Positions 1 through 34,013 of a stretch of 39,620 nt of DNA are shown here, piece by piece. The position numbers were made by a program, and so were the translations under genes. This stretch comes from a virus: the IMG/VR virus record IMGVR_UViG_3300027996_002167, positions 1-39,620 of that record; one strand, 5' to 3'. The stretch's first letter is position 1. Every line of letters starts with the position of its first letter. The notes under the pieces are model-generated. The model made no database searches, had not been told where the DNA came from, and was given only the letters and a program-made list of their open reading frames with translations.

Positions 1-48
1 TTCCCAGTAACCATCTCTTTCACCATCCTTATATTGATTCTTTTTCAT
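1..48 (-). CDS. MORN-repeat protein, N-terminus only (cut by window edge)
   Basis: Only 16 codons are visible before the left edge. They read MKKNQYKDGERDGYWE, the same start as the other MORN-variant proteins in this window (MKKNQ or MIKNQ, then KDG, then GYWE). The start codon overlaps the last 20 bases of the gene at 29-382, so it is the last visible member of the first MORN cluster. Function unknown; see the MORN entries that follow. Confidence 0.75.
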   Translation of the reverse strand, partial: MKKNQYKDGERDGYWE

Positions 49-13528: not shown

Positions 13529-14068
13529 TTATCTGATATAAATTAAAAATTGTTTTATCATCTTATTATAATTAAAATTGGTAGCTTTAAATAGGTTGTG
13601 GGTTTCTTTGAGGTTATTTATATATAATTCTTTATTTGATGTTATATGTAGTTCCTGTGTTTGTGATATATGGAATTTTGTTTGGTTAATAAGATAAAAA
13701 ACTAATGATGCCCATCTATCAGCAAATAATTCTTCAGCAATAATGAATTCGTGAAAGCTTTTAAAATCTGAGGTGGTTAACATATTCAAATGGTAATCAA
13801 CCCCATGCTTATCAATTCTTTTTTTATGTGCAATTTCATGTAATAATATAAAAAAAACCTTGTGTAAATTTATTTCCCCAACACTTACTCTAGTCAGTAT
13901 ATCGTATATGTCAATATATATACAATCTAGTGTTGTCAAACCTACAATATCATCACTTAAACAGGCATTTATTATTTTTATGTTAGACTCATTAATGATT
14001 GTAAGTATTGTTTCAAAATTTAAAAGACTCATGTTATTAAGTCTATGTATAAAATCCTCAAAACTCAT
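13529..14068 (-). CDS. Zinc metallopeptidase-like protein (HEIAH), 179 aa
   Basis: A zinc-binding HExxH lies at residues 77-81 (LLHEIAHKKR), in a helix, and a second acidic helix follows about 30 residues later (AEELFADRW, E112/E113/D117), the usual place for the third zinc ligand. The N-terminal 75 residues are alpha/beta. No signal peptide, so cytoplasmic. Targets are unknown. It overlaps the HAD gene upstream by 4 bases. Confidence 0.65.
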   Translation of the reverse strand: MSFEDFIHRLNNMSLLNFETILTIINESNIKIINACLSDDIVGLTTLDCIYIDIYDILTRVSVGEINLHKVFFILLHEIAHKKRIDKHGVDYHLNMLTTSDFKSFHEFIIAEELFADRWASLVFYLINQTKFHISQTQELHITSNKELYINNLKETHNLFKATNFNYNKMIKQFLIYIR

Positions 14069-14601
14069 CTAATTTTACCATCTTTAACATGATAGATGTT
14101 AAATTCATCAATAAACCCCAATTTAATTAACTCACCACCAAATGTGTTGAATTGTGCTATGTGCGCATCTCTATCATCATACATTACAATTTTTTTTATG
14201 GTTGGGATTTCATTTACTAAATCAAAAATTTGGTCTTTCTTATTTATTAACGTGTTCCCACCATAATTATACATATATCTATCAAAATATGTAATACCAT
14301 TTTTATTTAACACAGCTTCAACATATTCACTTAAGTGAGTTTTTCTACCTGTTAACATAACGACAAGTATGTTTGGGGCATTAATAACTTTATTATAAAT
14401 GCCAACGACATCTGGTATTGGTATATGTGTAAATATATTGGTGTCTAATGATTCTTTTCTATCCCACCAACCACCCCAAGGCCAATTTTTACCAGTCTTT
14501 TCTTTATATATGTTTTTTTGTTTTTCGTCACCCTTACCAGTATTAATTAATGTACCATCAAAATCAAAGACATATAAAATTTCCGCATTTACCTTATCCA
14601 T
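14065..14601 (-). CDS. HAD-superfamily phosphatase of the RNA-repair (HAD_SAK) type, 178 aa
   Basis: HAD motif I is DFDGTL (Asp13 nucleophile, Asp15), motif II is MLTGRK near residue 90, and motif IV is YDDRD near residue 150. The sequence WPWGGWWDRKESLD after motif I is the mark of the HAD domain found in Swiss-Army-Knife RNA-repair proteins, where it is predicted to process phosphates at RNA ends. Overlaps of 4 bases with the peptidase gene and 13 with the gene upstream place it in one operon. A role in tRNA or RNA repair is a family-based prediction. Confidence 0.75.
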   Translation of the reverse strand: MDKVNAEILYVFDFDGTLINTGKGDEKQKNIYKEKTGKNWPWGGWWDRKESLDTNIFTHIPIPDVVGIYNKVINAPNILVVMLTGRKTHLSEYVEAVLNKNGITYFDRYMYNYGGNTLINKKDQIFDLVNEIPTIKKIVMYDDRDAHIAQFNTFGGELIKLGFIDEFNIYHVKDGKIR

Positions 14602-25141: not shown

Positions 25142-25693
25142 TTATTTTTCTTTATTATTACTATATTTAACACCCATGATGGTACCTATGATACTAAATG
25201 AATTTGTTAATAAGATACCAAAAAGATTACTCCATGTGGACCCAATTGTTTGTGTTTCCCTATCAAACGATATTGCAACAATATACATTATTGTTGTGAT
25301 TATCGCAACAGATACTATAACAACAAGTGACACCTTAACAATTACACCCATTAACTCAAATTGAGTTTTTTTTTGAAGCATTGTTAAATCATTTTCAACA
25401 GTTTCTTTAGCTTTACCAATATCTATTAATGATTGAGACAATTCGTCATTAACCTTTTCGTTTTCAATCTTAGCTAATTGTAATTCTTTATTTTGCTTTT
25501 GAATCTTCTTGGTAATTTCAAGTCTCTTAAGTCTTTTATCCCTATCACTGGATATACAATCCGTAACGTATTGTTTAAAGTTATCATCTTCTTCATCGTC
25601 TAAGGGTATTACCTTCAGTATATTCCCCTCTAATTGAATACTGTGTTTTTCGTATATCTCAAGTAATTTTTTCTTAGTATCATTACTAATCAT
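25142..25693 (-). CDS. Membrane protein with cytoplasmic coiled coil, linked to the two-component system, 183 aa
   Basis: Residues 1-115 are soluble and charged, with a coiled coil (KIQKQNKELQLAKIENEKVN, continuing to about 110). Two transmembrane segments follow: MGVIVKVSLVVIVSVAIITTIMYIV-type at about 115-140 and LFGILLTNSFSIIGTIMGV at about 155-175. It starts inside the end of the response-regulator gene (4-base overlap), so it is translationally coupled. It could be the output or a signal-relay partner of the two-component system; it has no recognised family. Confidence 0.65.
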   Translation of the reverse strand: MISNDTKKKLLEIYEKHSIQLEGNILKVIPLDDEEDDNFKQYVTDCISSDRDKRLKRLEITKKIQKQNKELQLAKIENEKVNDELSQSLIDIGKAKETVENDLTMLQKKTQFELMGVIVKVSLVVIVSVAIITTIMYIVAISFDRETQTIGSTWSNLFGILLTNSFSIIGTIMGVKYSNNKEK

Positions 25694-26121
25694 TTGTAAA
25701 TTTTAAATGGGGCCGTTCTATTTTTATATCCTTCAAAGTCTTTTCTAAATTCTTCAAGCCTTGGTTCAATTTCATCAGATTTAATAATCCAAAATTGTGC
25801 CCCAGCCTTAACTGCTTTAGCTTGTTCTTCTGCTTCATCTGATGATGAAATAATACCAATAACTAATGCGTTACCATATTCAAAGTTTATTTTTCTAACC
25901 AATTCTATACCATCAAAACTGGAACCGATAATATTTAAATCAATAAACGCACAAGCTGGTTTTTTGCCACCAGTATGAAACCATTTTTTAAACATTTCTT
26001 CCGCTTCCTCACAAGAAGATACTGAAGTTAAATTAAGTGTTATATCTAAGATACTACACGCATCTTCAAAAACTAAATGAAATAAGTTTTCATCATCAAC
26101 CAAAAGTATTGACTCAATCAT
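25690..26121 (-). CDS. Response regulator receiver domain, stand-alone, 143 aa
   Basis: A CheY-like receiver: acidic pair D9-D10, phosphorylation Asp D61 (AFIDLN), Ser at 92-94 (GIISSSDE), Lys K114 (WIIKSD). No DNA-binding output domain. An unusually short C-terminal extension (FEGYKNRTAPFKIYK). The start overlaps the stop of the kinase gene by 4 bases, so kinase and regulator form a cognate pair. As a stand-alone receiver it should act by protein contact, possibly with the coiled-coil membrane protein encoded next. Confidence 0.88.
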   Translation of the reverse strand: MIESILLVDDENLFHLVFEDACSILDITLNLTSVSSCEEAEEMFKKWFHTGGKKPACAFIDLNIIGSSFDGIELVRKINFEYGNALVIGIISSSDEAEEQAKAVKAGAQFWIIKSDEIEPRLEEFRKDFEGYKNRTAPFKIYK

Positions 26122-27371
26122 AATAATATTTTTATTTTTGTACCATTTTTTAATTTTTCACATGAAACTAAAAATCCATGCTCATTCATTATTGCTATGC
26201 ATATATTTAAACCTAAACCACTGCCAGATTCTTTGTTACCGTTCTTCCTTATATATGGTTTTGAATATTCTTCAAACTCTTGTTTACTCATACCCCTACC
26301 ATTATCCCTAACAATTAAATAGTCACCTTCCATGTAAACCACAATAAACTTACTCTTACTATCATTATATTTAAGACCATTCCGTATCAAATTATCAATC
26401 GCTGTACAAAATAATGATTGATTAACTTCCTTTTCTATTAACTTATCAATCTTAACTTGGTCTGAATATGATGTAGATTTTAAATGTTTCTTTAATATCA
26501 CACCAAGATTATGGGTGCTAATTTCTAACTTGGAATCTTTCTTAACGAGATTTGTAAATTCTTTAACACCTTCATATACTTTTTGTGTGTGTGCCAATCC
26601 CTCTTCAAGTAACCTCAATGGTGCCTCAATATTTAATAATTTTATTAAATCGTCATTTAGTCTTCTTTTTAATGAACGCAACCCTCTTGGTATGTATGTG
26701 TTTATTCCACTGTGCATATCATGTCTAAGTATCTTAGCCGCATGTTCCAAATAAGTATTTTTCTTTTCTAGTTCAAGCTTCTGGTTTACTGATTCTGTAA
26801 TATCGGTAACAATCTTCAATATCTTAATAATATCACCATCTTTATTAAAAATTGGGTTGTAGGTCCCATGTATGTGTACCTCTTCACCTAATTTAGTATA
26901 TCTGATGAAGTCACCAGCTTTAAATTTACCTAACCTTAAATCATCCCAAAACTTAATATATTTTTTAGACTTAACTACTCGTTTATTAACAAATATACTA
27001 TGTTTCTTACCAACTATATCTGAAATATTATAACCCATTATAGCTAAAAAATTTTCATTGGCTGTTATTATGCCACCATTAGGGCAGAACTCTATCACAG
27101 CATTAGATTTATTAATGGCGTTTAAGACATTTTTTATCTCTTCATTTTTGTCACTAAGTATTTTCTTAGTCTTTAAATATTCGCCCTTTCTCATTGAATT
27201 ACATAAAATTAAAAAGCATATTATTAAATAAACCCCAAGCACCCCGTATTCAAAATACATTATTGATGTTGTTTCAAATATAATGTTGGTTAATCCAAGT
27301 GTTTTTAACCCCAAAAACAAAATTAAAAGTGAAACACATAAGACCACATAACCCCTAATATTATATCTCAT
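26118..27371 (-). CDS. PAS-domain sensor histidine kinase, 417 aa
   Basis: Two transmembrane helices at about 8-28 and 42-57 with almost no periplasmic loop, then a PAS domain (about 85-190; NAVIEFCPNGGIITANENF, IMGYNISDIVGKKH, YNPIFNKDGDIIKILKIVTD), a DHp helix with H217 in ILRHDMHSG, and an ATPase domain with N-box IDNLIRNGLKYND, G1 VRDNGRGM and G2 GSGLGLNI. All elements for autophosphorylation are present. The start at 27371 (MRYNIRGYVV) is chosen because a longer TTG frame would begin inside the terminator hairpin at 27401-27424. It is coupled to the receiver gene. A complete two-component kinase on a phage is very rare. The sensed signal is unknown, perhaps intracellular via PAS. Confidence 0.92.
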   Translation of the reverse strand: MRYNIRGYVVLCVSLLILFLGLKTLGLTNIIFETTSIMYFEYGVLGVYLIICFLILCNSMRKGEYLKTKKILSDKNEEIKNVLNAINKSNAVIEFCPNGGIITANENFLAIMGYNISDIVGKKHSIFVNKRVVKSKKYIKFWDDLRLGKFKAGDFIRYTKLGEEVHIHGTYNPIFNKDGDIIKILKIVTDITESVNQKLELEKKNTYLEHAAKILRHDMHSGINTYIPRGLRSLKRRLNDDLIKLLNIEAPLRLLEEGLAHTQKVYEGVKEFTNLVKKDSKLEISTHNLGVILKKHLKSTSYSDQVKIDKLIEKEVNQSLFCTAIDNLIRNGLKYNDSKSKFIVVYMEGDYLIVRDNGRGMSKQEFEEYSKPYIRKNGNKESGSGLGLNICIAIMNEHGFLVSCEKLKNGTKIKILL

Positions 27372-27393: not shown

Positions 27394-27424
27394 TAAAAAA
27401 ACCCATACAAATATTTGTATGGGT
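27394..27424 (-). terminator. Rho-independent terminator of a small RNA unit
   Basis: Perfect 12-bp palindrome ACCCATACAAAT/ATTTGTATGGGT followed on the minus strand by seven T. It ends the non-coding unit starting near 27600 and lies 23 bases before the histidine-kinase start codon, so that gene needs its own promoter or read-through. Confidence 0.9.
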
Positions 27425-27600
27425 TTCTGAAATGAAAAAAATTTTAAAGAAATTAAGTAGGGGAGTCAGAAAGATATTAGTCCTGTTTGATAGATGTTAG
27501 TTGCGGTAATCTTTCTTTATTTTTACCCTATTCAGATTAATGTGTTTACATTTCCGATTGTATGTGTATTTGCTGAAATTAATCTTTATTTATTTCCTTG
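27395..27600 (-). ncRNA. Candidate phage small RNA, about 205 nt
   Basis: No ORF is present on either strand, but the segment has its own Bacteroidota-type promoter (27607-27637) and a strong intrinsic terminator (27394-27424). Inside, GAAAGAT (27509-27515 complement) and ATCTTTC (27469-27475 complement) can form a 7-bp stem enclosing about 33 bases. The transcript would contain short unpaired stretches, e.g. CCGCAACTAACATC. Not recognised as a known family. Alternatively it is a 5' leader with an attenuator for the histidine-kinase operon. Confidence 0.6.
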
Positions 27601-27606
27601 TTATAA

Positions 27607-27637
27607 CAAAGATAATAAAGTTTTTTTAAAAAACAAA
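27607..27637 (-). promoter_or_regulatory. Bacteroidota-type promoter of the small RNA
   Basis: TTTG at 27634-27637, 19-base spacer, TATCTTTG at 27607-27614 on the minus strand; a textbook match. Start expected near 27600. Confidence 0.7.
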
Positions 27638-27642
27638 CTTTT

Positions 27643-27867
27643 TTAATCTTTTTTTTCAAATAAATTATAATCATCTGTATATTCTTCAATGATTATGTAA
27701 ATATCTTGCATATGTCCAATGTTATGTACAATGTTCGCTACCCTATAATAAACACTATTAAGATATATTAGTTCATGTATTCTGGGTAAATATTTTAATT
27801 TTACATCAGAAGCCATTAATTCCCATTTTTCATTTAAAAATGATATCTTAATTTTTTTATTAAACAT
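27643..27867 (-). CDS. Conserved-looking phage protein, 74 aa
   Basis: Not recognised. Small beta-rich protein: KIKISFLNEKWELMASDVKLKYLPRIHE, then LIYLNSVYYRVANIVHNIG and DIYIIIEEY. The layout looks like a compact OB- or SH3-like barrel, as in phage accessory proteins, but no name can be given. It ends just before the small RNA promoter. Confidence 0.6.
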   Translation of the reverse strand: MFNKKIKISFLNEKWELMASDVKLKYLPRIHELIYLNSVYYRVANIVHNIGHMQDIYIIIEEYTDDYNLFEKKD

Positions 27868-31224: not shown

Positions 31225-31301
31225 TAACTTTCAGAATGTAGAGGAAATTAAATTAATTGAATTTGATTTAGTTTAAGTTGCTGAAAACATTCTTTATGGG
31301 T

Positions 31302-32747
31302 TTATACTTTAATAGCTGAATATCTATCTTGGTTTATAGTTTCTAACATAATTGACATTGGTGTCATTTCTTTTCCACCCAATATACTCTTAAGTATTGA
31401 TGGTGAAAAACCACTAACAAGTGAAGTACCAACTTCATCAAACTTAACGGGACAATTATCCTGTCTTGAATTTAAGTTCCAATAAACTATTTTTGGTGTC
31501 TCATAACCATGTTCACTATATAATGACGTAATCATTTCTTGAGCAGTCATATCCCACCCATTAATATTGTCTTCATATTTGGTGGCAACATCAAATTCCA
31601 TGTCAGACAATATTAGGATAATAGTTGGCATATCTTCTTTAGCGACATTATTCTTAACGGACTTATCTAATATAAGTTTAAATACAGATTCTATGTTAGT
31701 ATTATACCCCCATTCTGAATCTGATAACTGATTAAATCTATCAACCAAATTACCCTTTAAGTGTTGCAATTCTGGTTCTGCGGAAAAAGTTATAAAACTA
31801 TCCTTAAATGGACCAACATTTCTTTCAGAAATATACAACCCTAATGAGATTGCCACATCCATACAACTTACATTACCACTTCTACCAACTGGGCAATCCA
31901 TTGAACCAGAAACATCAACAAGAGGTAAAACCATTTCTTTGTTACCATCCATGAAGTCTGGAAGATTATTCCATTGTTGCATAGCACCAATGGAATTACC
32001 AAACTTTAGGTTTGTTGTCACATCATATGGGTAAATAGCACCAGTATTTATCTTCTCTGTACCATTAGAAACAGATTCAAGATAGTCACTAAACCTATCA
32101 CCATCATTCTTTGTGAATGCTCTCATGTAGCCAGACATGGCTTTTGATGGAACCTTACCATATTCTATCTTAGAAAACTCCTTATTGCACATAAGATTCT
32201 CTACCGTAGCAGAAAGACTTGCAAGGAGTTTTCTGTACTCTTTTGGCGTTTTTTTAAGATATTCTCTAATAGCTTTCGCTTGCTTCTTCTTAACTTGGTT
32301 TTTACCATTACCTCTTGGAAGCCACTTGGCACATAACCCATCACCATTTTCCAAAGCATTGGCTATCAACTCTAAGGCATCCTTTTCAAGGTCTGTACCA
32401 ACTAGTGTTAATACATCATCCCATCTACCATACTCTGGCATTAAATGTATATTCTTCTGTAACCCAGAAGAATTATATAATGCAAGATATTCAACAATAT
32501 CTCTATATGTCTGTCTTTCACCAGCACCACCTCTCACATCTCTAACCCAAAAAAGGATTTTCATTGCAATCAATGGGTTTGAGTCAAAAGCCTTTGAAAA
32601 TAAAGATAATTTTCTACGCTTTTCTGAACCCCTTAAGGCACCAATTTGAAAAAATAAATCCACACAACTATTAAGAGTAGTTGAATGTGTTGGCATACCA
32701 TTTTCTGTGAAGGTATCTTTATTTCTAAGTGCATCTATAAAGTTCAT
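31302..32747 (-). CDS. DUF2828-like, Ro60/TROVE-like plus von Willebrand A domain protein, 481 aa
   Basis: N-terminal helical repeats with FWVRDVRGGAGERQTYRDIV and HLMPEYGRWDDVLTL resemble TROVE/DUF2828 repeats, which form a ring that binds structured RNA. The C-terminal vWA domain has the MIDAS motif PLVDVSGSMDC, then LILSDMEFD. The length is typical. In bacteria Ro60 relatives bind Y RNAs and help degrade or repair RNA; a phage copy might bind phage or host RNA. Promoter and element E lie upstream, a terminator downstream. Specific target not shown. Confidence 0.88.
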   Translation of the reverse strand: MNFIDALRNKDTFTENGMPTHSTTLNSCVDLFFQIGALRGSEKRRKLSLFSKAFDSNPLIAMKILFWVRDVRGGAGERQTYRDIVEYLALYNSSGLQKNIHLMPEYGRWDDVLTLVGTDLEKDALELIANALENGDGLCAKWLPRGNGKNQVKKKQAKAIREYLKKTPKEYRKLLASLSATVENLMCNKEFSKIEYGKVPSKAMSGYMRAFTKNDGDRFSDYLESVSNGTEKINTGAIYPYDVTTNLKFGNSIGAMQQWNNLPDFMDGNKEMVLPLVDVSGSMDCPVGRSGNVSCMDVAISLGLYISERNVGPFKDSFITFSAEPELQHLKGNLVDRFNQLSDSEWGYNTNIESVFKLILDKSVKNNVAKEDMPTIILILSDMEFDVATKYEDNINGWDMTAQEMITSLYSEHGYETPKIVYWNLNSRQDNCPVKFDEVGTSLVSGFSPSILKSILGGKEMTPMSIMLETINQDRYSAIKV

Positions 32748-32881: not shown

Positions 32882-32912
32882 CAAAGATATATAAGTTTTT
32901 TTAAAAACCAAA
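32882..32912 (-). promoter_or_regulatory. Bacteroidota-type promoter
   Basis: TTTG (32909-32912), 19-base spacer, TATCTTTG (32882-32889) on the minus strand. The surrounding 45 bases are duplicated at 33205-33250. Start near 32875, just before element E and the DUF2828 gene. Confidence 0.65.
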
Positions 32913-33219: not shown

Positions 33220-33250
33220 CAAAGATATATAAGTTTTTTTAAAAACCAAA
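33220..33250 (-). promoter_or_regulatory. Bacteroidota-type promoter (duplicate)
   Basis: TTTG (33247-33250), 19-base spacer, TATCTTTG (33220-33227) on the minus strand, identical in sequence to the promoter at 32882-32912. Start near 33213, so element F would be in the leader. Confidence 0.65.
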
Positions 33251-33270: not shown

Positions 33271-33579
33271 TTAAAATCTTGTGAAGATGTTTTTAATGAA
33301 TAGTTTTGTTTTCTGACCGAATGTTTTTTCAATCTTTTTTATTCTTGTGGGGGTTTCTTTTACCTTTTCACCTAGACTACCTTTTAATTCATTAATGAAG
33401 TTTTTTTTCTTTACATTGGTTGTATGTTCCATACCCTTTATATCGTTAAGGACAACTTCAAGGGTTTCCACCCTTTCAAGTTTTTCTTGGTTTTCTATGT
33501 TTTTAATAAATTCTTTGTTTTGTTCTTTAAATTTAAAGAGAACTTCTTCTAGGGGTATTATTCTATCTTTTTTACTCAT
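33271..33579 (-). CDS. Lys/Glu-rich coiled-coil protein, 102 aa
   Basis: Not recognised. Long charged helices, e.g. LEEVLFKFKEQNKEFIKNIE and LERVETLEVVLNDIKG, with Lys-rich end (FGQKTKLFIKNIFTRF). Overlaps the Nudix gene upstream by 4 bases, so it is co-transcribed with it. Likely a coiled-coil adaptor. Confidence 0.6.
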   Translation of the reverse strand: MSKKDRIIPLEEVLFKFKEQNKEFIKNIENQEKLERVETLEVVLNDIKGMEHTTNVKKKNFINELKGSLGEKVKETPTRIKKIEKTFGQKTKLFIKNIFTRF

Positions 33580-34013
33580 TGAAGTATATTTTTAATTTTA
33601 TCCAGTGTTCCTGGAAATAATGGTTGGGGTAATGTATTTAAATCACACCACACATAATCAAGATGTTCATTATTTAAATTTGGTTTAAATTCTTTTCCGA
33701 CATAACCTTCGTAATAATAAAAATCTAAATTTTTAGCATCAGAAGGTTCCTTGTCTTTAAATTTATATGTGATATAATTAGGGTCTATGTTTATTTCTTC
33801 TTTAACTTCTCTTTGAAGTCCATCTAATATTCGTTCATCAAATTCAATGGCACCACTAACCAATGACCATGTGTTGGGTTCATCACCAATATCACTTCTT
33901 AACAATAATAAAACCCTTTCAGTATTTATGCATTTTATCAACACACCAGCGGCTACGTTTCGATTAGTCAATTTTCTGTATTCTTTTAATTTTTTTTTTA
34001 TAAACCCTTTCAT
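33576..34013 (-). CDS. Nudix hydrolase with capsid-targeting-like leader, 145 aa
   Basis: It hydrolyses nucleoside diphosphates linked to other groups. The Nudix box is complete: GAIEFDERILDGLQ followed by REVKEEINI, matching GX5EX7REUXEEXGU. The N-terminus MKGFIKKKLKEYRKL resembles the leaders at 21.5-23.8 kb; LKE fits L-x-E. This could be another packaged enzyme. Other phage Nudix proteins act on nucleotides or decap RNA. Confidence 0.88.
   Translation of the reverse strand: MKGFIKKKLKEYRKLTNRNVAAGVLIKCINTERVLLLLRSDIGDEPNTWSLVSGAIEFDERILDGLQREVKEEINIDPNYITYKFKDKEPSDAKNLDFYYYEGYVGKEFKPNLNNEHLDYVWCDLNTLPQPLFPGTLDKIKNILQ

Follow-up and report, generated by a model that had tools for sequence, protein, structure and literature searches.

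Y RNAs are known from animals and bacteria, and Chen et al. (2014, RNA 20:1715) are said to have reported that they occur near Ro60 in bacteria and in mycobacteriophages. In the YrlA family of Rfam (RF02553) the tRNA-like module has a T-arm followed by a D-arm, and some Y RNAs are without such a module. For the Listeria phage CKA15, an RNA-binding protein with an HHpred match to D. radiodurans Rsr was detected in purified virions, and abundant ncRNAs near it were suggested to be Y RNAs (PMC12282133). Here we analysed a stretch of 39,620 nt of viral DNA (record IMGVR_UViG_3300027996_002167, hereafter the window), in which a unit on the minus strand, at 27395-27637, is very likely to be an independently transcribed phage Y RNA that carries two putative Ro-binding-type hairpins and is the partner of a Ro60-like protein encoded in the same window. 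The features of the locus are collected in Table 1.

Table 1. Features of the unit, of its neighbours and of the Ro60-like gene in the window.
Feature	Position	Strand	Remarks
Promoter	27637-27607	-	Bacteroidota type: TTTG at -33, 19-nt spacer, TATCTTTG at -7
Promoter boxes	TTTG 27637-27634; TATCTTTG 27614-27607	-	
Predicted small non-coding RNA, ~205 nt	27395..27602	-	putative transcription start; from ORF scan, indels and fold
Closing stem P1	27599-27593 with 27452-27446	-	7 pairs kept in the relative, two one-sided changes
Hairpin 1, putative Ro-binding-type motif	27585-27534	-	AGATTAAT-TT-CAGCAA ... ATTAATCT, then GA; motif scan
Hairpin 2, same putative motif	27516-27468	-	AGAAAGAT-TA-CCGCAA ... 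ATCTTTCT, then GA; motif scan
Hairpin 2 arm base, TAGGG/CCCTA	27458..27530	-	compensatory G-C to A-U in the relative
Intrinsic terminator	27428-27395	-	14 pairs including G-U (12 perfect), 4-nt loop, T-run
Small ORF directly upstream of the unit	27643..27867	-	L151, L153, L193 have comparable ORFs ahead of motif RNAs
PAS histidine kinase downstream of the unit	26118..27371	-	judged outside the Ro/Y RNA system
Third motif copy	31233..31293	-	just past the Ro-like stop codon; terminator 31225-31200 after it
Ro60-like protein, proposed partner	31302..32747	-	phrog_850 'RNA-binding protein', DUF2828 + DUF7788 (vWA)
Promoter copy upstream of the Ro-like gene	32882..32912	-	matches the unit promoter
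Second promoter copy, further upstream	33220..33250	-	matches the unit promoter

A first-pass annotation of this DNA had described a TTTG-19-TATCTTTG promoter, about 205 bases free of ORFs, a perfect 12-bp terminator with a T-run and a kinase start 23 bases past it, and all of these elements were recovered at the positions given in Table 1. The window has 3 occurrences of TTTG-18..20-TATCTTTG, versus 0.07 in shuffled sequences, and four further copies of the whole 35-bp promoter, 83-89% identical and on the same strand, lie near 32912, 33250, 29772 and 21230. Apart from the kinase frame, the ORF scan returned no minus-strand ATG frame longer than 31 aa overlapping the RNA, and the longest ATG frame on the opposite strand of this region is 50 aa.

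The sole full-length homologue that we found is in the sibling phage IMGVR_UViG_3300010151_000064 (L088/L096/L150), where the unit is 83% identical and its flanks 90%. The two units differ by indels of 2, 2 and 7 nt, which rules out that the unit is coding. In both RNAs, the predicted fold joins P1 and the two hairpins at a three-way junction, and one pair at the base of P3 has changed in a fully compensatory way, from G-C to A-U; the stem of hairpin 1 is conserved in L088 while its loop has diverged, and hairpin 2 has kept its 35-nt loop almost unchanged. The structure is richer than had been described: the internal stem of the first-pass annotation is present, with 8 bp rather than the claimed 7 bp, and the second 8-bp hairpin (hairpin 1) and the 7-bp closing stem had been missed. 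As a whole, the fold is more stable than that of shuffled sequences (z of -3.2 for the window and -4.1 for the relative), a difference that falls to -1.3 and -1.4, respectively, once the terminator is removed.

Neither a BLAST search of the unit region against named phages nor a covariance model of the whole unit gave a full homologue beyond the sibling phage. Rfam, at gathering as well as permissive thresholds, returned no credible family for the unit and no Y RNA match, RF02553 included. Three candidates were discarded: L094 and L012 match in the promoter alone, at the 5′ ends of coding genes, and a pattern match in L148 is a chance one inside a coding gene.

A covariance model built on the two sequences gave weak matches that clustered just downstream of phrog_850 genes, and from these we derived a hairpin motif. 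Precisely, the motif is (U)AA-RG-N8-CNGCAA; its initial 6-8 bases are paired to a 3′ arm that ends in YCU, after which comes G(A). Each arm of the unit RNA is a hairpin of this type, with an identical 10-nt spacing. The window holds exactly 3 copies (two of them in the unit RNA and the other immediately past the Ro-like gene), versus 0.13 in shuffled sequences. We counted 51 copies in the 600-nt stretches that follow Ro-like genes (23 kb from 40 phage loci), versus 24 elsewhere on the same strand of loci with such a gene (537 kb), hence a density about 49-fold higher, the p-value of which is not to be taken literally as the 40 loci are partly redundant. Other phage loci, 3.16 Mb in all, contain 4 copies.

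We also searched with the RNA pattern alone, and 49 viral contigs were found, 22 of them with a Ro-like protein. Among motif contigs of at least 60 kb, 13 of 16 encode the protein, versus 7 of 34 control phages (Fisher p 7e-5), although these controls were collected via two other genes and hence are no random sample. Tandem copies are common, and just 2 of the 105 copies in the 49 loci fall inside ORFs of at least 100 aa.

Of 30 5′ halves of the motif in the vicinity of Ro-like genes, 29 are closed by a stem of 6 bp or more with G after it, versus 8.4 when arms were swapped between loci (maximum 15) and 1.8 when arms were shuffled (maximum 6). For 40 non-redundant hairpins the covariation score was 0.668, versus 0.195 for shuffled and 0.05-0.17 for slid alignments, a value that is partly built in because the search required the first six stem pairs. 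The independent part consists of the swap test and of pairs 7 and 8, which are free of that requirement and are paired in 32 and 20 of the 40 hairpins, respectively. Seven of the eight stem pairs show changes on both sides, and beside this conserved, covarying stem CNGCAA is invariant.

The association extends over phages of several hosts. The Ro-like protein is encoded in 682 of 50,697 phage records, and some depositors annotate it as 'Ro-like RNA binding protein'. Beside its gene the motif is present five times in Vibrio phage PhiImVa-1, four times in E. coli phage Alf5, three times in Listeria phage LP-124 and once in Campylobacter phage NCTC12673; mycobacteriophage Wigglewiggle, which resembles the reported mycobacteriophage Y RNA loci, has it three times, in a slightly looser form, after a gene annotated with the name above. 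It was not found beside the gene in three other phages examined (L375, L382, L383). Six bacterial contigs (L200-L205) also have the motif near a Ro-like gene, and the Firmicutes/Synergistota clade of the protein is without it; many bacterial relatives of the protein (L199-L278) come from gut Firmicutes and Synergistota. Near canonical TROVE genes no copy was found within ~1.5 kb, and the Y RNA stems that go with canonical Ro60 (YrlA) have a different appearance. As regards other genes of these neighbourhoods, L151, L153, L183 and L187 carry tmRNA genes at 2.5-6 kb downstream of the one for the Ro-like protein, and in LP-124 (L384) an RtcB-like RNA ligase is encoded ~1.3 kb downstream.

The first-pass annotation had also considered that the unit might be a leader-attenuator of the two-component system downstream, with a terminator read through conditionally and an upstream structure sensing a signal. 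The unit and the kinase are on the same strand, the terminator is 23 nt (27394 to 27372) from the kinase ATG at 27371, no obvious promoter lies between them, and read-through into the kinase is possible. Yet none of the 80 phage kinase relatives that we fetched has the unit upstream, and in L153 and L193 syntenic motif RNAs, that of L153 with exactly the hairpin 2 stem AGAAAGAT, follow a similar small ORF but precede genes unrelated to the kinase (similarity of the small ORFs in L151, L153 and L193 to that of the window was judged by reading the translations). These two observations argue against a kinase leader; moreover, no antiterminator pairing was noticed on inspection of the sequence and folds, and what the hairpins match is a family of RNAs associated with a different gene. 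We consequently regard a leader-attenuator as improbable, and this part of the earlier proposal as not supported. The kinase and a receiver-domain protein (25690-27371) belong with a kinase family that has hundreds of viral-contig relatives (L008-L087).

An antisense small RNA, in which the conserved loop of hairpin 2 pairs with phage or host mRNAs, is slightly less probable still. The near invariance of that 35-nt loop in the relative, next to the diverged loop of hairpin 1, would be in keeping with it, but with the rest of the window the loop gave duplexes (-27.5 kcal/mol at best) that were no better than those of shuffled loops (-23.7 to -30.3 kcal/mol).

The profile of the proposed protein partner matched TROVE/Ro60 proteins at 92.5% over 414 columns, versus 8.9% for a CoxE-vWA control; the match is remote and is carried by the vWA half, in which a domain with a MIDAS gave an hhalign value of 93% to TROVE proteins versus 13.5% to the CoxE vWA. 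The N-terminal half alone had no significant profile match to TROVE/Ro60, and a single AlphaFold model from a five-sequence input was poor (pLDDT 42), with this half helical. The protein thus resembles Ro60/TROVE (Rsr) in its remote profile match, in a vWA domain with DxSGSM and, as far as a low-confidence model goes, in a helical N-terminal half, and differs from it in belonging to DUF2828/DUF7788 and in having no Pfam TROVE match. Pfam TROVE was likewise not matched in 26 members of the Ro-like family, nor in the motif-bearing records searched, nine phage and eight bacterial.

The region between 32747 and 32912 and the leader after the promoter at 33250 belong to adjacent transcription units with a near-identical 35-bp promoter, one of which leads to the Ro-like gene. 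Their leaders are similar (GGGUUGGUUCAGCAACCC and GGUUGGUUCAAUAACC, with CUGAAC later on), and the shared promoter and leader sequences make autoregulation possible. The window also encodes a HAD_SAK_1 domain (14065-14601), whose Pfam name derives from the 'Swiss Army Knife' RNA repair proteins, and a Nudix hydrolase (33576-34013).

A T-arm-like sequence was seen in 15 of 66 long-loop candidates, mostly ~40-50 nt from the start of the RNA; several have a D-arm after it, which is the order of RF02553; motif RNAs with such a permuted tRNA-like module include those of L168, L330, L355, L377, L378 and L380. The motif RNA of PhiImVa-1 (L377, 2132-2374) contains a pair of T-arms and a pair of D-arms, of which one set is annotated as a suppressor tRNA. 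The module is absent from the unit RNA and from the third copy of the window, the window being a genome fragment. With YrlA the unit RNA shares a paired Ro-binding-type stem that closes the RNA, and its long-loop motif relatives enclose the permuted module; it differs in having two motif hairpins instead of one, no tRNA-like module, another stem sequence, a promoter of its own, separated by 3.7 kb from the gene of the Ro-like protein, and no match to RF02553. Least probable of the alternatives are untranslated or processing hairpins, namely that the motif marks mRNA 3′ ends or tRNA clusters for processing instead of binding Ro: some copies lie ~9-30 nt past the Ro-like stop codon with no room for a promoter, and in Alf5 and L168 copies sit among tRNA genes. 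Several features speak against it: CNGCAA is sequence-specific and sits at a fixed spacing of 10 nt, the motif goes with Ro-like genes, some of its RNAs enclose permuted modules, and units such as that at 27395-27637 stand alone between a promoter and a terminator.

Like our window, CKA15 encodes a Ro-like protein (the LP-124 homologue has 35.8% identity), and in CKA15 highly transcribed ncRNAs lie nearby. LP-124 is related to CKA15, and its motif copies (2156-2417 of L384) immediately precede the gene of the Ro-like protein; the CKA15 transcripts are not established as motif carriers, because they probably map further upstream than these copies.

Our assignment of the unit to the phage Y RNAs is based on the tie of its motif to the Ro-like gene, the covarying stems and the YrlA-type module of its relatives. 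The unit RNA is in a genome with a Ro60-type gene, 3.7 kb away, and the association holds family-wide. The independent phage small RNA of the first-pass annotation, with promoter, non-coding body and terminator, is in this way upheld, and its interpretation is sharpened to an RNA with two copies of a hairpin associated with a Ro60-like gene, which the earlier reader had not seen.

In the mechanism that we propose, each hairpin would be a binding site for the phage Ro60-like protein, and RNA and protein would be made together from their near-identical promoters. One RNA may bind a pair of Ro-like molecules, or present two sites. It would more likely occupy, gate or stabilise the protein than tether a nuclease, the latter being less likely because the unit RNA is without a tRNA-like module. 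By analogy with the work on D. radiodurans Rsr and its Y RNA (PMC4726728, PMC12282133), the pair may act in RNA quality control or in the turnover of host RNA during infection. More tentatively, and with less confidence than in the Y RNA assignment, two-headed phage Y RNAs free of a tRNA module may form a class that holds or gates two Ro60-like molecules at once, may belong to a widespread phage RG-N8-CNGCAA family with no Rfam match, and may serve an RNA-surveillance or turnover particle of the phage.

An anonymous intergenic stretch thereby becomes a testable protein-RNA pair, and since such a pair is present in named phages, e.g. the E. coli phage Alf5 (host K-12), the question can be addressed directly. 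With a simple signature of sequence and structure, Y-RNA-like genes can be located in phages that infect many hosts. The existence of Y RNAs in phages has been proposed before; which site on them the protein binds, and what role they have for the phage, are the questions that this signature addresses.
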